Assembly: GCA_016194975.1 (NCBI GenBank)
Contig: JACQAM010000022.1
Location: 186,001-250,000, forward strand
Reading direction: 5' to 3'
DNA: 64,000 nt
Source of the DNA: Bacteroidota bacterium
GTDB taxonomy: Bacteria > Bacteroidota > Bacteroidia > Palsa-965
The notes under the pieces were generated by a model, which saw only the letters and a list, made by a program, of their open reading frames with translations, did not search any database and was not told the origin of the DNA. Positions 45,760 through 55,082 of this stretch are shown one piece after another. Position numbers and translations under genes: made by a program. The stretch's first letter is position 1. Every line of letters starts with the position of its first letter.

Positions 45760-46971
45760 TCACTCCACTGCACAAACAAAAACTCTCGACTCTTTATTTC
45801 CTTTCTGTTTGTACAACGAACGGAATCCGACATCAGCAATGATGAAATTCATTCCCGGCGAACGGTATTCCTCCACCACATTTTTTATATCGAAATCTTT
45901 CAGTTCACTTTCGTTGTTGTAACGAATGTAAACACGCAGATCAAAATCAGTGTCCAATAATTTTTCTCCGTTGTATTCTTTGCCAAGTGTATGTTGCAGC
46001 TTTTTCAGTTTCTTGTAAGAATATTTATAGTTGTAGGTCAATGCAGAAATATCGGAGAGCACAGCACTCCCGGTTGGATGCGCGCCCGCGCCCTTGCCCG
46101 TGAACACCTGCGTGCAGGAAAATGCGCCTTCTACTTCTATGCCGTTGTACTCGTAAAGAATTTTAAAAAGTTCATCGTTTGCTTTTACAAACCGCGGCAT
46201 CACGTACACGCGGAAAGCATCTCCCGCTTTTGCAGCGCTCGCCACTAATTTTATGCGCAAACCTTTTTCGCGCGCGTAGCGGATGTCGTTGAAAGTTATA
46301 TTCTGAATTCCGAGCGCGAGTACATTTTCCGGTTTGAGAATCACACCGAAGGCATGCACACTCAACAAGCATAATTTGTAAAGTGTATCGAATCCTGCAA
46401 CATCGAGCCATGGATCGATCTCGGCAAAACCACTTTTCTGCGCGTCTTTAAGCACATCAGAATAATCTTTGCTTTCCAGTTCCATCCGGGTGAGAATGTA
46501 ATTGGTGGTTCCGTTTAAAATTCCACGCAGCGAACTGAGCAACTCATTGTCATAATATTCTTCGAGCGTGCGGATGATGGGAATACTTCCGCCGGCCGAT
46601 CCCTCGTAAATGAGCGCCACATTATTTTCCTGCTGTAGTTTGTACAATTCTTCGAAATAAGACGCCAGCATTTTTTTACTTGCACTCACCACCGAAGTTT
46701 TATTTTCCATCGCACGCTTCACGATCTTAAAAGCTTCTTCAGTATCGTTGATCATTTCCACCACCACGTCGAGATCGTTGCGATCAAGAATATCATTCTT
46801 ATCGTAAGTAATGAGCGACATTTCCACCGATCTTTTTTTCTTCGGATCCTTCACGCAGATCCGGCTGATGTCGGCCTGCAAAACTTCTGAGTGATTGAGT
46901 ACATCGTACAATCCCTGTCCCACGCATCCGAACCCGAAGAGCGCTACTTTTATTTTGTTGTTATCTGTCAT
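45760..46971 (-). CDS. hom: Homoserine dehydrogenase
   Basis: Homoserine dehydrogenase reduces aspartate semialdehyde to homoserine, the precursor of methionine and threonine. The 403-residue protein has the NAD(P) motif VALFGFGCVGQGLYDVL and the substrate-site region SAGGSIPIIRTL...ILNGTTNYILTRM, DPWLDVAGFDTLYKLCLL and GKGAGAHPTGSAVLSDI. No fused aspartate kinase is present. It follows the APS reductase gene by 73 bases on the same strand. Placement at the end of a sulfur-assimilation operon makes sense, since homoserine provides the carbon skeleton for methionine. Confidence 0.93.
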   Translation of the reverse strand: MTDNNKIKVALFGFGCVGQGLYDVLNHSEVLQADISRICVKDPKKKRSVEMSLITYDKNDILDRNDLDVVVEMINDTEEAFKIVKRAMENKTSVVSASKKMLASYFEELYKLQQENNVALIYEGSAGGSIPIIRTLEEYYDNELLSSLRGILNGTTNYILTRMELESKDYSDVLKDAQKSGFAEIDPWLDVAGFDTLYKLCLLSVHAFGVILKPENVLALGIQNITFNDIRYAREKGLRIKLVASAAKAGDAFRVYVMPRFVKANDELFKILYEYNGIEVEGAFSCTQVFTGKGAGAHPTGSAVLSDISALTYNYKYSYKKLKKLQHTLGKEYNGEKLLDTDFDLRVYIRYNNESELKDFDIKNVVEEYRSPGMNFIIADVGFRSLYKQKGNKESRVFVCAVE

Positions 46972-47044: not shown

Positions 47045-47692
47045 TTATAGATGCAATCCGCATTCCGTTTTATTCCTGTTCACCCATCTTCCTTCGCGCC
47101 CTCTTCCTTTTACAGTGCAGTGAATGCAGCCGACAGAGGCGAATCCGTGCGTGACGAGCGGATGTGATGGTAAATTATTTTTCTTCATGTAACTCCTGGC
47201 GTCTTCAAAAGTAAAATCGATGATCGGGTAAAACTTGATGATCCCGTCTTTCTCTTCGAAGATCTTCATTTTTTTCCGGTAAGAATTCTGCGATTGCATC
47301 AGTCCGGAAACCCATATCCGGAAATCGGGTTTTATTTTATCGAGCGGTTCTACTTTATTGATGGAGCAGCACAGGTCAGGATCTTTCGACCAGGTCTGAT
47401 CTTCATTGGTGAATTTGTTTTTCCATTCTTCAGGCAATACCGTGATCACATCGAGATTCAGCAATGATTCCAATTGATCTTTGTACTGCAGTGTTTCTGC
47501 AAAATGATAAGTGGTATCGAGAAAATGAATTTTCTGTTTTGGATTTTCTTTGCTGAACAAATGGAGAAGAATAGCCGACGTAGTACCGAATGATGAAGTA
47601 AAAAGCACGCGATCAAAATCGTTGTACAATTCTTTCACGCGTTGTCCCGGCGTCAACAGAATATATTTTTCGTTCAATTCCCCGATCGTCAT
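47045..47692 (-). CDS. cysH: APS reductase (thioredoxin-dependent, [4Fe-4S] type)
   Basis: The 215-residue enzyme reduces adenylyl sulfate to sulfite. It has SSFGTTSAILLHLF (the P-loop-like nucleotide site), the paired cysteines DLCCS (C108-C109) and CIHC (C189 and C192), and the C-terminal catalytic motif ECGLHL. The CC plus CxxC set binds a [4Fe-4S] cluster and indicates APS rather than PAPS as substrate. The ATG at 47692 overlaps the stop of the upstream gene as ATGA. A longer frame running back over that gene is an artefact. Confidence 0.92.
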   Translation of the reverse strand: MTIGELNEKYILLTPGQRVKELYNDFDRVLFTSSFGTTSAILLHLFSKENPKQKIHFLDTTYHFAETLQYKDQLESLLNLDVITVLPEEWKNKFTNEDQTWSKDPDLCCSINKVEPLDKIKPDFRIWVSGLMQSQNSYRKKMKIFEEKDGIIKFYPIIDFTFEDARSYMKKNNLPSHPLVTHGFASVGCIHCTVKGRGREGRWVNRNKTECGLHL

Positions 47693-49218
47693 TTTACAAA
47701 GGTCGTAATCAGGATGCGGATACTGATGATGATCACCACAAATCCTACAAGGATCAATCCGTTCCGTACTGAAATTTTTGTTGATAGCCACACCGAGATG
47801 GGCGCTGCGATAGCCGCACCAATGATCAGTCCGAGAATTATTTCCCATTGCCCGATGCCCAGCAAACAGATGTAAGTGATCGTTGCCATGAGCGCAACAA
47901 AAAATCTTGCCGCGTGCGCACTCCCGATCGTGTAACGCAGGTCGCGCCCGCCTGCGACGAGCGTCGAAGTCACGATTGGCCCCCATCCGCCTCCGCCCGC
48001 AGCATCGAGAAATCCTCCTGCGGCAGCAAGCGGCCAGATCCGATTGAATTTTTTCTTCTGGATGATGCGCGATACAATGGCTTTACGCAGAATGAGAATT
48101 CCCAATACGAGTGTGTAAACAGCGACGACAGGTTTTACATAGAACATATATTTTTTCAGCAACGATAATGTGCATGCGCCGATGATCGCACCAATTGCGC
48201 CGGGAACAAAAAGATTTTTGAAAAGTTTTACGTTGATGTTGCGATAGCGCATGTAAAAAAGCGAAGAAGCTCCCGTTGTAAAAATTTCGCTGGCGTGCAT
48301 GCTCATACTCGCGATCTGCGGTGCAACACCAAATGAAAGTAAAAATGTAGTTGTGCTCACACCATAAGCCATTCCCAGTGCGCCATCAATCATCTGTGCA
48401 ATAAATCCGCCGAGTATCCACCACAGGATTTGCGAATCGACGGAAGAAAATAATCCGACAGTTGCATTCCCGATCGAATGAAAGGGAATAATTGTGAAGA
48501 GAAGATGGCCGGTGATCAGCAACGCAAGAATGGAAATGGAATAAAGAAAAGCGGTTCTCACCCGACGGCGGAAAACTTTTTTCTTGTCTTTGCGCTCGAT
48601 AAGAATTGCCGTGGCTTTGTTCAGCACTTTTACTTTTTCGGCGAAATCACCGCGGAGCGTTGTTCTTAGTTTGTTGAGCTGATTGATGGAATCATTCGTT
48701 TCAGCCGGAATATTTTCATCCAGCACTTCACGCAAACGTTTAGCAAGTGTCGGCGATTTTCCATTGGTAGAGATCGCAATTTTCAAATCTCCTTTGCGCA
48801 CGACAGACGACAGATAAAAATCACAAAGCTCCGGCGTGTCAGCCACATTCACAAGCAGATTTCTGCGATGCGCTTCTTCCGCGAGTTCTTCAGAAGCAAG
48901 ACGATCGTTGATAGCAATGAAAACAAGATCGGTCTCGTCAAAATCCATAATGATCGCTTCTCTTTCAAATAGAATGAGATTTGTGAACTCTCTTGAAATA
49001 TCGACGATCTCTTTGCTGATATCTGTTGCAACGAGCGTGATAGCAACCGATGGACTATTCGATAGAATGGCCTGCAGTTTTTCCAACGCAACATTCCCCC
49101 CGCCAATGAGCAGCACACGCAGTTCTTCCAGTTTCAGAAAAACAGGGAAAAGTTCATTCGATTCCGTTTCGGTTTCTTTCTCTTTCAATTCCACTTCGTA
49201 TGGGACTGCAAAATTCAT
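47689..49218 (-). CDS. Siroheme synthase (CysG N-terminal type) fused to TauE/SafE-family transporter
   Basis: The 509-residue protein joins two functions. Residues 1 to about 190 are a precorrin-2 dehydrogenase/sirohydrochlorin ferrochelatase like Met8p or the CysG N-terminus (FLKLEELRVLLIGGGNVALEKL, VFIAINDRLASEELAEEAHRR, LVNVADTPELCDFYLSSVVRKGDLKIAISTNG). Residues from about 215 to the end have eight membrane segments and TauE/SafE features (GGFIAQMIDGALGMAYG, GGFLDAAGGGGWGPI). The transporter family moves sulfite, sulfonates or related anions. The fusion couples siroheme production for sulfite reductase with sulfite handling. cobA ends 17 bases upstream. Confidence 0.9.
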   Translation of the reverse strand: MNFAVPYEVELKEKETETESNELFPVFLKLEELRVLLIGGGNVALEKLQAILSNSPSVAITLVATDISKEIVDISREFTNLILFEREAIIMDFDETDLVFIAINDRLASEELAEEAHRRNLLVNVADTPELCDFYLSSVVRKGDLKIAISTNGKSPTLAKRLREVLDENIPAETNDSINQLNKLRTTLRGDFAEKVKVLNKATAILIERKDKKKVFRRRVRTAFLYSISILALLITGHLLFTIIPFHSIGNATVGLFSSVDSQILWWILGGFIAQMIDGALGMAYGVSTTTFLLSFGVAPQIASMSMHASEIFTTGASSLFYMRYRNINVKLFKNLFVPGAIGAIIGACTLSLLKKYMFYVKPVVAVYTLVLGILILRKAIVSRIIQKKKFNRIWPLAAAGGFLDAAGGGGWGPIVTSTLVAGGRDLRYTIGSAHAARFFVALMATITYICLLGIGQWEIILGLIIGAAIAAPISVWLSTKISVRNGLILVGFVVIIISIRILITTFVK

Positions 49219-49235: not shown

Positions 49236-50039
49236 TTACGATTGCAGCAAATGATCTTCGAGCGAAAGTAAATAAGCTGCCTGCGGATTTTTCCGCACCA
49301 CTTCGCCAATGACGATCACTGCAGGAGCGCCGATATTTTCTGCTTCTACTGCGTGCACGATCGTATCGATGGAACCGATCGCAATTTTTTCTGAAGGCAA
49401 TGTTCCGTCCTGTATCACCGCAACCGGTAAATTTCCGCGGCCAAACGACTGATAAATTTTTATGATCTCAGGAAGTTTTTTCAAACCCATCAGGATAACT
49501 ACCGTTGCTTCTGATTTTGCAGCGAGTTTTACATCTTCCGGAACTTTTCCCTGTCCGACCGTGCCGTCCGGGCGGGTTTCTGAATTTCTTCCCGTGATCA
49601 CCCAAAAACTTTCACTTATTCCGCGATGCGTAACAGGAATTCCCTGTGAAGCAGGAACGCCGATGGAACTGGAAATGCCGGGGATCCATCCTACAGGAAT
49701 ATTGAACGATTCTGCGAATTCAATTTCTTCTATGCCGCGGCCGAATACAAATGGATCTCCGCCTTTTAGGCGCACTACGTGCCCGTGTGTGTACGCGTAA
49801 TCGACCAGCAGCGTGTTGATCTGTTCCTGTGTGTAGGAATGTTGTCCGTCGCGTTTCCCGACAAAAACTTTTTTCGAATTCATCGGCGCATATTTCAGCA
49901 ATTCTTCATTCACGAGCGCATCGTAAAGAACAACATCGGCATCACCAAGTGCATTGATGCCTTTGAGTGTAATGAGTTCTGCATCGCCCGGGCCTGCGCC
50001 TACGAGCGTGATCTTTGGTTGTCTATTTTCGTATGACAT
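49236..50039 (-). CDS. cobA: Uroporphyrinogen-III C-methyltransferase
   Basis: This SAM-dependent enzyme methylates uroporphyrinogen III twice to give precorrin-2, the substrate of the siroheme synthase encoded next. The 267-residue protein shows VGAGPGDAELITLKG, GKRDGQHSYTQEQIN, VVRLKGGDPFVFGRG and the SAM-site segment SEATVVILMG, all typical of SumT. It lies between the sulfite reductase and siroheme synthase genes, so the operon makes the cofactor together with the enzyme using it. Confidence 0.95.
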   Translation of the reverse strand: MSYENRQPKITLVGAGPGDAELITLKGINALGDADVVLYDALVNEELLKYAPMNSKKVFVGKRDGQHSYTQEQINTLLVDYAYTHGHVVRLKGGDPFVFGRGIEEIEFAESFNIPVGWIPGISSSIGVPASQGIPVTHRGISESFWVITGRNSETRPDGTVGQGKVPEDVKLAAKSEATVVILMGLKKLPEIIKIYQSFGRGNLPVAVIQDGTLPSEKIAIGSIDTIVHAVEAENIGAPAVIVIGEVVRKNPQAAYLLSLEDHLLQS

Positions 50040-50102: not shown

Positions 50103-52247
50103 TCAGTTGAGATTCAAGTTGGATAATTCTTTTTGTTGTTCGCGATAGTTTTCTACAGTGAAAACAAATTCTTTTGCATCGTTCAGATAGATCCGTGCAA
50201 ACAATTCCGTTGCCGCATGGCGATTGAAGCGAAGAACATATTCACTGAAATTATTTACCGAACGGAAAGCGGGATGTTCTCCATAATTTTTTTCAAAATC
50301 GGACAACACGCCGTGATGCGTATTCACCAAAACATTTTTGTCGAGCAACAATGCTTTCGCGGCGTGAATGAATGCGTTGTAAGCGGTGTACAAAGCGTCT
50401 GAATATTTTTTCTCATTAAAATTTTCTTCTGAAGCGGCAAGTGCATCTTTTGCTTCGAACAACAGTGTAGAAACAAGATCAATCTTCACGCCCGCGCACT
50501 CGCCTGTGCCTATCGCCGTTTCAAATTTTGTTTCCTGTCCCCAGTCTATGAACTCCTCGTCGCTAAGTGAAGTTGTGTCTGCAACCGGTTTTAGTAAATG
50601 ATAGAAATAATTTTTTCCGGCGCGGTCATAATAATCGTTGAACGATTCATTTTTCGAATTCACTTCGAAATCGGAAAGAAGAATTCTCAACACGGCAGGA
50701 GCGCGCTTCGAGGGAAATTTGATCACCTTCTCTGCAATTCTTCCAGGGCCACTGCCCGTTGCTCCACCACCGAGTAAAAGCTGCAGGGCGGGAATAACAT
50801 GCTCGCCGGCTTTCTGCGAACTTCCGTGAAAACCGATCTGGGCGAGCCCATGTTGTCCGCAACTGTTTATGCAGCCGCTGATCCTGATGCGGATATTTTT
50901 TTCTGCAACGAGATGCGGAAATTCTTCGCTGATTATTTTTTCCAGTTCGGCGGAAACGCCGGTGCTGTTGGAAATTCCGAGATTACACGTGTCGGTTCCC
51001 GGGCAGGAAGTTATATCTCCGAGTGCATCTGATCCGGATGAAGCAAGCCCCAGGTTTTTCAGCTCATGAAATAATGCGGGCAATGCATTTTTAGGAATGA
51101 AACGAAGAAGAAAACTCTGTCCCGGAGTGATGCGGATATCTTTCGACGCATAACGCTCCGCAATTGCGGAAAATTTTCTTGCAAGCACTGAAGAAATATT
51201 TCCCTGCGGGATTTTTACACCGGCAGCAAAACTATTTTTCTGTTTCTGCTCCCACACATTTGCTTTCAGCCAGGAAGAATATTCGCTGGTTCCCGAAATG
51301 CGGAAGGTGGTAAAAACCTCCGCATGGTTATTTTCAAAGATCGCTTCTGCCGGCTTCACTGAAGAAATAAAATTTCCCGGCACTTTTCTTTCTTCTGCTG
51401 CAAGACGAAGAATTTCGCTGAGGCCGATCTTGTCCACGAGATATTTTAACCGCGCTTTGTGACGGTTGTTTCTTTCGCCATAGCGATCGAATACCCGGAG
51501 AACAGATTCTGTGAATGGAATAATTTCATTGGCCGGCAAAAATTCAAAAGCCGTTTCTGCGGGGAATGGTTGTGCGCCGAGCCCTCCGCCGATCAGCACT
51601 TTGAATCCTCGGATTATTTTATTTCCGGAAATTTCTACGCGCGGAATAAAACCAAAATCGTGAATGAAAGTGAATGCAGAATCTTTTTCAGAAGAAGAGA
51701 ATGCAATTTTTATTTTGCGGCCCAGGTCCTGGCCAACAGGATTGCGCAAAAAATAACGGAACAATTCATCAGCGTAAGGCGTTACATCGAACGGTTCCTC
51801 CGGATCAATTCCTGCCGAAGGAGAAGCGGTTACATTTCTCACTGTGTTTCCGCACGCCTCGCGCAAAGTGATCCCTTCTTCTTCGTAACCGCGTTCGAGT
51901 TTTTCCCAGAGCTCCGGCGTATCGTCAAGTGAAATGTGATGCAGCTGAATATCCTGACGCGTGGTAAGGTGAAGATTCCCATTGGAGAATTCATCGGAGA
52001 GCGATGCGATGCGGCGCAACTGACCGGGAGAAATTTTTCCGTACGGAATTTTTATGCGCACCATCTGCACGCCTTGCTGGCGCTGGCCGTACACGCCGCG
52101 CGCGAGACGGAGCGAACGGAATTTTTCAGGATCCATAGTTCCATTGCGGAAAAGCCGGATCTTTTCTTCGAGATCAATAATGTCGCGTTCTACAAGCGTT
52201 GTTTTGTCCGTTGTAATATTTTCGAGTTCTGTTCTGAAGCTTTGCAT
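50103..52247 (-). CDS. Siroheme [4Fe-4S] sulfite reductase with C-terminal HEPN-like domain
   Basis: The enzyme reduces sulfite to sulfide with six electrons, probably from ferredoxin. The 714-residue protein contains both parts of the siroheme-[4Fe-4S] cysteine set: CPGTDTCNLGIS (about 412-418) and ISGCINSCGQHG (about 455-459). The substrate-binding arginines lie in the N-terminal half (VYGQRQQGVQMVRIKIPYG). After the core, about 140 residues form a helical HEPN-like domain (KYSDALYTAYNAFIHAAKALLL). It is the first structural gene of the operon; the attenuator leaders lie immediately upstream. Confidence 0.92.
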   Translation of the reverse strand: MQSFRTELENITTDKTTLVERDIIDLEEKIRLFRNGTMDPEKFRSLRLARGVYGQRQQGVQMVRIKIPYGKISPGQLRRIASLSDEFSNGNLHLTTRQDIQLHHISLDDTPELWEKLERGYEEEGITLREACGNTVRNVTASPSAGIDPEEPFDVTPYADELFRYFLRNPVGQDLGRKIKIAFSSSEKDSAFTFIHDFGFIPRVEISGNKIIRGFKVLIGGGLGAQPFPAETAFEFLPANEIIPFTESVLRVFDRYGERNNRHKARLKYLVDKIGLSEILRLAAEERKVPGNFISSVKPAEAIFENNHAEVFTTFRISGTSEYSSWLKANVWEQKQKNSFAAGVKIPQGNISSVLARKFSAIAERYASKDIRITPGQSFLLRFIPKNALPALFHELKNLGLASSGSDALGDITSCPGTDTCNLGISNSTGVSAELEKIISEEFPHLVAEKNIRIRISGCINSCGQHGLAQIGFHGSSQKAGEHVIPALQLLLGGGATGSGPGRIAEKVIKFPSKRAPAVLRILLSDFEVNSKNESFNDYYDRAGKNYFYHLLKPVADTTSLSDEEFIDWGQETKFETAIGTGECAGVKIDLVSTLLFEAKDALAASEENFNEKKYSDALYTAYNAFIHAAKALLLDKNVLVNTHHGVLSDFEKNYGEHPAFRSVNNFSEYVLRFNRHAATELFARIYLNDAKEFVFTVENYREQQKELSNLNLN

Positions 52248-52337: not shown

Positions 52338-52370
52338 GTAATTCGTATATCCGTATGATTCGTAATTCGC
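52338..52370. repeat. GTAATTCGTATATCCG repeat before the sulfite reductase gene
   Basis: This is a 33-base copy of the repeat at 45722-45754. It lies between the second attenuator terminator and the sulfite reductase ATG. Confidence 0.6.
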
Positions 52371-52406
52371 AAAAGAAAAAGCCCTCTCGTTTTACCGGGA
52401 GGGCTT
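52371..52406 (-). terminator. Attenuator terminator 2 of the sulfur operon
   Basis: On the minus strand AAGCCCTC (52406-52399) and GAGGGCTT (52386-52379) form an eight-pair stem, followed by five T, C and four T (52380-52371). It lies 24 bases after the stop of leader peptide 2 and 124 bases before the sulfite reductase ATG. A seven-base stretch in its 5' arm and loop, CTCCCGG (52401-52395), is complementary to CCGGGAG near the end of leader peptide 2 (52454-52448), so an antiterminator can form. Confidence 0.8.
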
Positions 52407-52430
52407 CGCTCAACACACCAACAATCAACT

Positions 52431-52532
52431 TCACGACGAATACAACACTCCCGGGCTACTGCGCATGCAGCAGCACATACACATGCTTGCGCACATGTAA
52501 GTGGAGTGGAAGTGGTTCGTCGCAGTTTTCAT
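52431..52532 (-). CDS. Cys/Met-rich leader peptide 2 of the sulfur operon
   Basis: The 33-residue frame starts at ATG 52532 and stops at TGA 52433-52431. It begins MKTATNHF and contains YMCASMCMCCCMR: five Cys (residues 14, 18, 20, 21 and 22) and four internal Met. AAAGAGA lies about nine bases before the ATG as a possible ribosome site. The run of Cys codons lies in the left arm of a short hairpin, UGCUGC-AUGC-GCAGUA. A ribosome slowed by scarce Cys-tRNA would open that hairpin and free CCGGGAG to pair with the terminator. The peptide itself probably has no function. Confidence 0.75.
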   Translation of the reverse strand: MKTATNHFHSTYMCASMCMCCCMRSSPGVLYSS

Positions 52533-52577
52533 GTTGATTCTCTTTGAAATATTTTTTTGTGAGTTGGTATTAAAAGG

Positions 52578-52610
52578 GAAAAGCTTCTCCGCATAACGGA
52601 AAAGCTTTTC
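52578..52610 (-). terminator. Attenuator terminator 1 of the sulfur operon
   Basis: On the minus strand GAAAAGCTTTTCCG and CGGAGAAGCTTTTC form an almost perfect 14-base stem around TTATG, and CCTTTTAATA follows. It lies 20 bases after the stop of leader peptide 1 and upstream of leader peptide 2. Weak complementarity (CGGAA after leader 1 with TTCCG in the stem) could form an antiterminator. The T-run is poor, so termination may be partial. Confidence 0.6.
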
Positions 52611-52630
52611 TTATTGATTGGCAATTCCGG

Positions 52631-52699
52631 TTAAGGTATGATCATGCAACACATGTTGCAGTTGATCTTTGATTGGTTATGGAATTGCGGTGTTTTCAT
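52631..52699 (-). CDS. Cys-containing leader peptide 1 of the sulfur operon
   Basis: The 22-residue frame starts at ATG 52699 and ends at TAA 52633-52631. It begins MKTPQFHN and has CNMCCM (Cys 14, 17 and 18). The Cys codons fall in a perfect hairpin, TGCAAC-ATGT-GTTGCA (52660-52645). The peptide shares the MKT start, the position of a His near residue 7-8 and the CxxCC-type cluster with leader peptide 2, which suggests that the leaders are duplicated. The ATG lies about 12 bases after the promoter's -7 box, so the mRNA may be leaderless. Confidence 0.65.
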   Translation of the reverse strand: MKTPQFHNQSKINCNMCCMIIP

Positions 52700-52710
52700 G
52701 TTTACCGGCG

Positions 52711-52742
52711 CAAATATAATGCGGAAAAACAATACGGAGCAA
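52711..52742 (-). promoter_or_regulatory. Promoter of the sulfur operon
   Basis: On the minus strand TTG (52742-52740), a 21-base spacer and TATATTTG (52718-52711) match the Bacteroidota TTG...TAnnTTTG promoter. Transcription would start around 52703-52708, a few bases before the ATG of leader peptide 1. The promoter lies 24 bases beyond the stop of the lipoprotein gene at 52766. Confidence 0.65.
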
Positions 52743-52765: not shown

Positions 52766-53485
52766 TCACTTCACTTTATCGAATGTAGCAACCGGACGGA
52801 AGAGCCCGCGGCGATCGAGATTTTTCAGTTGATCCGGTGTGGCCGCCACTACGTAATAGGTCTGATCGGAAGATCGTGTGAATGGAGTAACGCATGAAAA
52901 AACGCCGGTGGAATCTACGGTTGATTTTTTTTCATCCATGCGGTCCGACATTTTTCTTTTTTCGTCTTTAGGCAACGAAGGAACAGCGATCGACAATTTA
53001 TTTTTGTGCAGCGTGATCTGCATTACTTTCCATTCCTCTTTATTATCGGCCGTAATATTTTTCATGCTCAGCCAGTAATCGCCGTTGAAAATTTTGAGCA
53101 CGGTATCTTTCCCCAGTTTGTAAACCTGTGTGTTACGCGTGACGATCGTTGCAGAATCATTATTCATTTTTTCCACGTAACGGTCTTCTCCTGCTTTGAA
53201 ATAATACTTTCCGTTTTTGCCTTTCGATAAACCAATTTTGGAAGTATCAGCAATGGGAATAGTGATGCGCGTGGGCCGAATGAGTGTCATGGAATTTGCG
53301 CGCACATAAAGAGAATCGTTGTTGCTCACATAATCGCCCTGCAGGGAAGCGGGAACTTCTTTGAGTGCAGGAACAGAATTCGGTTGTTGTGTTGTGAAAC
53401 GAACGTCGCCTTCGCAGGAAAAAAGAAGAAGGCAGGAGGCAGAAAGCAGTAAGCAGTAAAGAGAAGTTGTGCAGCGGAGATGCAT
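52766..53485 (-). CDS. Hypothetical lipoprotein
   Basis: No family was recognised. The 239-residue product has a lipoprotein signal peptide with lipobox LLFSC. A mostly beta domain follows (LQGDYVSNNDSLYVRANSMTL, TQVYKLGKDTVLKIFNGDYW, MQITLHKNKLSIAVPSL). The hydrophobic part of the signal peptide, SLYCLLLSASCLLLFSC, is encoded by repeat DNA (53428-53460) of the same kind as in the lipoprotein at 7231. The gene is on the same strand as the sulfur operon, but that operon has its own promoter. Confidence 0.65.
   Translation of the reverse strand: MHLRCTTSLYCLLLSASCLLLFSCEGDVRFTTQQPNSVPALKEVPASLQGDYVSNNDSLYVRANSMTLIRPTRITIPIADTSKIGLSKGKNGKYYFKAGEDRYVEKMNNDSATIVTRNTQVYKLGKDTVLKIFNGDYWLSMKNITADNKEEWKVMQITLHKNKLSIAVPSLPKDEKRKMSDRMDEKKSTVDSTGVFSCVTPFTRSSDQTYYVVAATPDQLKNLDRRGLFRPVATFDKVK
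53428..53460. repeat. CTGCTTACTGC-type repeat inside a signal peptide
   Basis: The minus strand reads TTTACTGCTTACTGCTTTCT followed by GCCTCCTGCC. It is in frame and encodes the hydrophobic core of the lipoprotein at 52766-53485. Compare 7849-7935. Confidence 0.65.
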
Positions 53486-53804: not shown

Positions 53805-55082
53805 ATGAAAAAATTCTACTCCATCCTATTATTTGCATGCGCAACTTTTTTTGCAAACGCAACGCAGCATACGATATTCGTTTATTGTACAGGAATAAAT
53901 CCTACGACTACCACCGCAGTTTGCGGCGACAGTATAAAATGGACCTGGGGCGGATGTTCAGACAGCGTTAGATCTACCCTCATTCCTGCTTGTGCTACTC
54001 CATGGTACTTTCCGATCAACACTACAACTCCTGTTTACACGGTAGTTCCCTGTGCGGGCAATTATAATTTTACGTGCTATTGCAACACCAGTTATTATTC
54101 AGGAATAATTGTTGTTTCCTGTTCTTCTCCTCTTACTGTTACCACTTCGCACACGAATGTTTTGTGTAACGGGCAATGCAACGGAACGGCTACGGCAACA
54201 GCAAGCGGGGGAACTGCGCCTTATACTTACTCATGGTCACCCGCAGGAGGAACAGCGCCAACTGCACCGGGATTGTGCGCCGGCAATTACACCGTTACAG
54301 TTATGGATGCTGTTGGTGCGACAGCCACTTCTACAGTTGCCATAACACAACCAACACCGCTCGCAGTAACTCCATCGCAGGTGAATGTTACCTGTAATGG
54401 TAATTGTAATGGAGTTGCTCAGGTAATTGTTTCCGGTGGTACGCCGGGTTATACTTATTCGTGGGCGCCTACAGGAACAACCACCTCTACTGCCAGCGGA
54501 CTTTGCCCGGGCAGCTATACGTGTACGATAGCGGATGCGAATGGTTGTACTATAACACAAACCTTCATAATCACCCAGCCAACAGCGCTCAGCGTTAATA
54601 CTTCAACTGTTCCTGCTTCCTGTAGTTCCTGCTGTGATGGATCTGCCTCTGCAATTGCAACGGGTGGAAATCCTGCTTACACGTACGTGTGGTCGCCGGG
54701 CGGACAAACGACAGCAACGATCACCAATCAATGCATAGGATCTTATACTTGTTGTGTGACGGATGCGAATGGATGCATGTCTTGCCAGGTGGTGACAATC
54801 ACATTTACGACCGGCGTGCAGGATCCGTCAGTAAAAAGTAATCTGAATTTATTCCCGAGCCCGGCCACTGAATTTCTGACGGTGAAAGAAACATTTGCAA
54901 ATTCTGTTTCTGCAACGATCACGGTTTCAAATATTCTTGGCGAAACTGTTTTCACGAAATCAGTTTCCGCAGCAGTCGAATTGAATGAAACGATAAATCT
55001 TGCAGGGTATGATCCGGGAGTTTATTTTATTTCCGTAAAAACTTCTTCCGGAACTTCCACGCGGAGATTTGTGAAAGAGTGA
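53805..55082 (+). CDS. T9SS-secreted SprB-repeat protein
   Basis: The 425-residue protein has a signal peptide (FYSILLFACATFFANA). Three SprB-type repeats of about 75 residues follow (100-330), each with VxCNGxCNGTA, GGTxxYTYSW, P-G-T, and GLCxGxYTVTVxDAxG. A C-terminal T9SS domain starts near 345 (LNLFPSPATEFLTV, SNILGETVFTKSV, PGVYFISV). SprB repeats occur in surface adhesins that support gliding in Flavobacterium. Three repeats make this a short member, and gliding is inference. The Cys-rich repeats are unusual in having paired CNGxCNG. Confidence 0.88.
   Translation: MKKFYSILLFACATFFANATQHTIFVYCTGINPTTTTAVCGDSIKWTWGGCSDSVRSTLIPACATPWYFPINTTTPVYTVVPCAGNYNFTCYCNTSYYSGIIVVSCSSPLTVTTSHTNVLCNGQCNGTATATASGGTAPYTYSWSPAGGTAPTAPGLCAGNYTVTVMDAVGATATSTVAITQPTPLAVTPSQVNVTCNGNCNGVAQVIVSGGTPGYTYSWAPTGTTTSTASGLCPGSYTCTIADANGCTITQTFIITQPTALSVNTSTVPASCSSCCDGSASAIATGGNPAYTYVWSPGGQTTATITNQCIGSYTCCVTDANGCMSCQVVTITFTTGVQDPSVKSNLNLFPSPATEFLTVKETFANSVSATITVSNILGETVFTKSVSAAVELNETINLAGYDPGVYFISVKTSSGTSTRRFVKE

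Follow-up and report, generated by a model that had tools for sequence, protein, structure and literature searches.

Attenuators of the trp, his, leu and ilv type place a leader with runs of codons for the regulated amino acid, followed by mutually exclusive antiterminator and terminator structures, upstream of a biosynthetic operon. In mycobacteria and other Actinobacteria, runs of cysteine codons lie near the end of short open reading frames (ORFs) upstream of cys genes; these polycysteine leaders have no conserved intrinsic terminators, and mechanisms based on Rho or on translation are considered for them (PMC1262725; Canestrari et al., 2020, as cited in PMC13236596). In Rhodobacterales the cysS gene is preceded by uORFC-8-2, which carries two Cys codons and is followed by an intrinsic terminator, an arrangement that is a prediction only (PMC8632094). 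Two leader ORFs in series, each within its own attenuator, are found in the Salmonella mgtCBR operon, where mgtM and mgtP sense ATP and proline (PMC3641672). A Flavobacterium transcriptome paper describes leader-peptide attenuation before amino-acid operons, and its main text does not name cysteine biosynthesis. The open-access literature yielded no cysteine attenuator from Bacteroidota, subscription papers and supplements lying outside the scope of the search, and the control of cysteine and methionine synthesis in these major environmental and gut bacteria is little described.

The window considered here, by which we mean the whole 64,000-nucleotide stretch of DNA analysed, is part of contig 22 of a Bacteroidota genome (4.1 Mb, 28 contigs). 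An original prediction placed a promoter, two leader ORFs and two terminator-like hairpins upstream of a sulfite reductase gene, and all five are present on the minus strand, base for base. The Bacteroidota-type promoter TTG-N21-TATATTTG (52711..52742) lies directly upstream of leader ORF 1, MKTPQFHNQSKINCNMCCMIIP (52631..52699), and its -7 box is only 11 nt from the leader ATG, which makes this a near-leaderless start. The Cys core of leader 1 (52660-52646) sits close to the end of the ORF, and intrinsic terminator hairpin 1 (52578..52610; -21.2 kcal/mol, z -7.0) follows, then CCTTTTAATA. About 100 nt separate the two Cys-ORF/terminator units. In leader ORF 2, MKTATNHFHSTYMCASMCMCCCMRSSPGVLYSS (52431..52532), the Cys/Met core (52493-52467) is followed by an 11-codon tail, and the second intrinsic terminator with its T-tract (52371..52407) consists of a hairpin at 52407-52378 (about -19 kcal/mol, z -3.0) and then TTCTTTT. 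Both terminators are predicted from sequence. No strong Shine-Dalgarno sequence was seen upstream of leader 1 or leader 2; Bacteroidota often initiate translation without one. Directly after hairpin 2 lies a short repeat, ATTACGAATCATACGGATATACGAAT (52339-52370), with copies 88-89% identical on contigs 9 and 7, and matches of 32-35 bases elsewhere in the genome, considered as a further attenuator, were rejected as this dispersed repeat.

The first structural gene downstream encodes a NirA-like, assimilatory sulfite reductase (50103..52247), recognised by NCBIfam nitrite/sulfite reductase matches of which none is above the equivalog cut-off. It is followed on the same minus strand by genes for uroporphyrinogen-III C-methyltransferase of the siroheme pathway (49236..50039, match above cut-off), for a siroheme synthase N-terminal (CysG_N) domain at residues 24-193 with a fused membrane region read from the protein itself (47689..49218), for phosphoadenylyl-sulfate reductase (CysH; 47045..47986), in which the match begins at residue 100 and the true start is probably inside the annotated ORF, and for homoserine dehydrogenase (45760..46971, match above cut-off). 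On the opposite side, the attenuator region is bordered by a lipoprotein-like gene (52766-53485), and beyond it a Cys-rich protein with repeats and a C-terminal domain of sorting type is encoded on the plus strand (53805-55082), divergent from the sulfur operon.

Set beside the trp, his, leu and ilv attenuators, this locus differs in its amino acid (cysteine, with methionine), its phylum, the nearly leaderless leader 1 and the presence of two units for the same signal in series. It does not belong with the actinobacterial polycysteine leaders, a class without conserved intrinsic terminators, each unit in the window having both a terminator and an antiterminator. Nor does it fit uORFC-8-2, as it precedes sulfite reductase rather than cysS, lies in another phylum, has more Cys codons and is tandem rather than single. 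In mgtCBR, mgtM and mgtP respond to different signals, whereas both leaders in the window have Cys/Met codons. The locus is not recognised as a T-box or SAM riboswitch either, Rfam covariance models at gathering score giving no match in the 64 kb window, riboswitches and T-boxes included.

How often such a unit would arise by chance was estimated with a loose rule, a short ORF with a CysCys pair, at least three Cys and a terminator within 100 nt. Dinucleotide-shuffled 64 kb windows contained 0.4 units each (30 shuffles), so two in series between a promoter and a sulfur gene are already unusual. Two further, isolated stretches of the real window also satisfy the rule, and a single unit alone would therefore be unconvincing without relatives. 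The tandem pair together with its conservation is convincing, and the element is real.

Of 58 related genomes, 19 proved to have sulfite reductase homologues, as did 44 further contigs. Upstream of these genes there are many leaders, e.g. MKNTSKQNFSFHMCMCMCMCCCMRGDSGDLYSS, MKFTNNQNLNSYMMCMMMCCCMRSDAGGYLAE, MNYTIHTILNKGMMCCMMCCCPRGMEMSC and MIQEYIRNFSMRNQGANTTCMCCCCCYYARRGIS, which have divergent N-terminal parts and keep a cluster of Cys codons, interspersed with Met codons, ahead of an intrinsic terminator whose hairpin and T-tract lie 18-57 nt past the leader stop codon. This is the comparison that the original prediction had proposed, naming loss of the ORFs or random replacement of their Cys codons as what would refute it; among loci that have the leader, neither is seen, and ORFs, Cys codons, hairpin and T-tract are all retained, in support of the proposed layout of ribosome-mediated attenuation. 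The significance it attached to the MKT start and early His shared by the two peptides is not confirmed, since the N-termini diverge among relatives, although an FFH-like motif does recur in leader 1. A promoter match (TTG-N18-21-TAnnTTTG) stands 5' of leader 1 in twelve related loci (L005, L008, L010, L016, L021, L146, L147, L149, L150, L157, L166 and L190). Some sulfite reductase loci have no Cys leader at all, and at several of these a gene for an Rrf2-family regulator lies directly upstream instead, which we read as alternative control; the cysteine regulator CymR is a member of the same family. Such Rrf2-type genes stand at L015, L027, L030, L059 and L067 (Pfam was run on the L027 protein only, and the others may rest on shared sequence).

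Across 68 non-redundant units the Cys codons comprise 127 TGC and 156 TGT, and the use of both indicates that the amino acid is conserved and not a single DNA word. Of the 78 residues in the Cys cores that are not Cys, 42 are Met, whereas Met makes up 5% of the N-terminal parts (p 5e-27; here as throughout, p-values are optimistic because related loci are not independent). This strengthens the earlier suggestion that Met-tRNA is also read, and the homoserine dehydrogenase gene of the window operon and the presence of the leader at metY operons point the same way. It remains a real possibility, towards which we lean a little less than against, that the Cys codons are the only sensor and that Met is there incidentally, ATG ahead of TGY being, for example, convenient for structure, with tandem attenuation otherwise unchanged. 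Cys is after all the invariant feature of the leaders, some runs contain few Met (MCCCCCCSC in L054, CCCCCK in L223), and there are Cys leaders ahead of cysCDN too, genes not specific to Met; the enrichment of Met in the cores counts against such a reading.

The original prediction contained no antiterminator, and one was identified in the present analysis for each unit. In leader 1, antiterminator arm 1, CCGGAATTGCC (52620..52630, minus strand), is immediately 3' of the stop codon and complements the 5' arm of hairpin 1, with CGGAA directly past the stop pairing with TTCCG (duplex -10.2 kcal/mol, p 0.027 against shuffled linkers). In leader 2, arm 2, CCCGGGAGTGTTG (52443..52455, minus strand), is within the coding tail and complements GCCCTCCCGG of hairpin 2, where CCGGGAG faces CTCCCGG of the terminator 5' arm (-16.8 kcal/mol, p 0.009). 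The antiterminator segment CCCGGGAG is likewise predicted to pair with the terminator arm. Units found by covariance model are biased towards the consensus, and the antiterminator statistics therefore rest on 26 units for which just an ORF and a hairpin were required, with no antiterminator criterion and no covariance model. In this set, linker-to-arm duplexes are stronger than those of shuffled linkers (Fisher combined p 1.7e-16), individually at p<0.05 in 16 units and not in the other 10. In 21 units, both sides of the antiterminator helix have changed in 14 cells, a count reached by 1 of 500 shuffles, and the helix has a covariation score of 0.30 (2 of 500 as high) that drops when it is slid by at least one column; its double-change pairs alone, five of eight, do not exceed shuffles. 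Covariation is stronger in the terminator helix, where 8 of the 12 pairs show changes of both partners in the 21 units. One example of helix covariation is columns 62-134, A-U in 16 and G-C in 4.

The antiterminator arm begins some 8-15 nt past the last Cys codon (median 11-14), with a standard deviation of 5.5 nt measured from the Cys codon, compared with 14.2 from the stop codon and 10.6 from the terminator. Its place is thus fixed relative to the Cys codons and not to the stop, which fits the footprint required of a stalled ribosome. When a ribosome was simulated by masking, in a set to which the units of L006, L007, L008 and L009 (likewise found by ORF and hairpin) were added, mean sequestration of the terminator 5' arm was 0.60 when the ribosome occupied the last Cys codon and 0.19 when it stood at the stop, and was higher at the Cys codon in 32 of 33 units, L032 going in the opposite direction. 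Shuffled linkers at the Cys position gave 0.40 against the real 0.60 (p 2.7e-13, within this model and among related loci). Equilibrium folding without a ribosome does not predict strong termination (mean 0.53).

This geometry bears on two quite different accounts of the locus. Attenuation might instead be translation- or Rho-based, as in the mycobacterial polycysteine type, the short ORFs controlling ribosome access or Rho and the hairpins playing a minor part; the actinobacterial leaders lack conserved intrinsic terminators (PMC1262725), and the near-leaderless leader 1 resembles mycobacterial leaderless cases. We consider this improbable in view of the strong covarying hairpins and T-runs, each with an antiterminator arm whose spacing from the Cys codons is fixed, and because hairpin 1 is over 300 nt away from the structural gene and so cannot hide the start of sulfite reductase. 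It is more improbable still, and we give it very little weight, that the ORFs encode functional small Cys-rich peptides, such as metal or sulfur carriers, separated from neighbouring genes by ordinary terminators. Cys-rich small proteins do exist and the Cys/Met core is conserved, but neither the N-termini nor the tails show conservation at the protein level, tail motifs that recur, MRK for example, fall on the RNA antiterminator arm, the ORFs recur with the terminator and antiterminator geometry, and NCBIfam gave no match to the eight leader peptides searched.

The tandem layout is not peculiar to the window. Two complete units in series precede sulfite reductase at 20 loci in nine family-level groups (spread being counted by family-level labels, and L157, with masked bases, being included). 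These are in six genomes of the window genome's own family (the window genome, G001, G007, G008, G009 and G011), in thirteen others (G029, G020, G064, G218, G035, G199, G316, G251, G336, G136, G069, G092 and G144) and on a Saprospiraceae contig (L054), while about 20 other sulfite reductase loci have a single unit. One Cys leader unit by itself is also seen at locus L053 of a cultured relative, Marivirga sericea DSM 4125. The order of the pair is fixed. In all 20 tandem loci, and so in 9/9 family groups, the leader 1 tail after the Cys core is shorter than that of leader 2. As in the window, the units are of type 1, with the antiterminator arm at or past the stop codon, and type 2, with the arm inside the coding tail, and type 1 always comes first. 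Leader 1 peptides from different families are closer to each other than to leader 2 (p 3e-13, from non-independent pairs), and a weaker resemblance between families is seen for leader 2 (p 0.02). The likeness of leader 1 between families suggests, from these comparisons of sequence, that the pair may be old and not a product of repeated recent duplication. In nearly all tandem loci no promoter match was found between the two units and the only one precedes leader 1, so that polymerase must pass both. Same-signal attenuators stacked in a fixed order across families are an unusual design, and one suited to testing a sharper against a deeper response. At some loci a further gene lies between the leaders and sulfite reductase, a peroxiredoxin gene in L006, L007 and L009 and an aldo/keto reductase-like gene in L145 and L147.

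With high confidence, we interpret the locus as two ribosome-mediated transcription attenuators in series that respond to Cys-tRNA and probably also to Met-tRNA; that the leaders are translated, that transcription ends at the hairpins and that these tRNAs are the signals is inferred. Four features expected of an attenuator are present, namely a short leader ORF in which codons for the regulated amino acid are frequent, an intrinsic terminator between leader and structural genes (so far a sequence prediction only), exclusive antiterminator and terminator structures with an arm that a stalled ribosome would free (supported by base complementarity and predicted folding), and downstream genes for biosynthesis of the sensed amino acid. 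Polymerase would start at the single promoter with a ribosome trailing on leader 1. Given an ample supply of Cys-tRNA, and probably of Met-tRNA, the ribosome would reach the stop codon and cover or disrupt the segment just downstream, allowing the terminator hairpin to form and transcription to stop. When Cys-tRNA is scarce, the ribosome would stall in the Cys core and leave that segment free to pair with the terminator 5' arm once it is made, and polymerase would proceed to leader 2, where the identical decision would be repeated. Only polymerases past both checks would transcribe the sulfite reductase, siroheme, PAPS reductase and homoserine dehydrogenase genes, and two stages could be expected to reduce basal expression and to make the response steeper. 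As the same design occurs across Bacteroidota, sulfide production is probably switched on when charged cysteine tRNA is short, the response to cysteine itself being inferred. The result offers a concrete, testable mechanism and a predicted regulon.

The extent of that regulon was explored with a covariance model, R1, built from 21 units, leader 2 of the window among them, and used for genome searches. R1 has three strong matches in the window genome, both window units (leader 1 with E 1.4e-6) and a third Cys-leader attenuator on another contig (G000:C8:201735-201837, minus strand, L099), where the leader MKNNFHIYNSCSMMCCMCF and a terminator precede cysC-cysD-cysN. A Cys leader before cysC-cysD-cysN also occurs in four other genomes (G003, L101; G007, L106; G002, L191; G092, L168). 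Across relatives, R1 finds Cys leaders before cysCDN, homoserine dehydrogenase, metY, a cysteine-synthase-like (cysK-like) gene and 2-oxoacid:ferredoxin oxidoreductase, and in other classes of Bacteroidota before metY and the cysteine-synthase-like gene. R1 matches without a Cys ORF were discarded as ordinary terminators. We tentatively propose, with belief falling somewhat short of doubt, that an RNA regulon spanning the phylum Bacteroidota governs sulfur amino acids. At its sulfite reductase operon, an ancient pair of attenuators that differ in structure and keep a fixed order would act as an AND gate, with different thresholds and a joint reading of Cys- and Met-tRNA.

No convincing Cys leader was found before 2-oxoacid:ferredoxin oxidoreductase in the window genome and its genus, and none is present upstream of the orthologue L220. 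In four relatives the korAB genes for this enzyme do have one (L117 in G007, L104 in G009, L217 in G008 and L148 in G092), which may tie the supply of reduced ferredoxin to sulfur starvation and sulfite reduction. A Cys leader, MNTTFTHIMSTKPVHYFNNVAKVMCCCHVWMCGNYLCLN, was also seen before the gene of a small membrane protein (L226, G086:C9:294788-294899).
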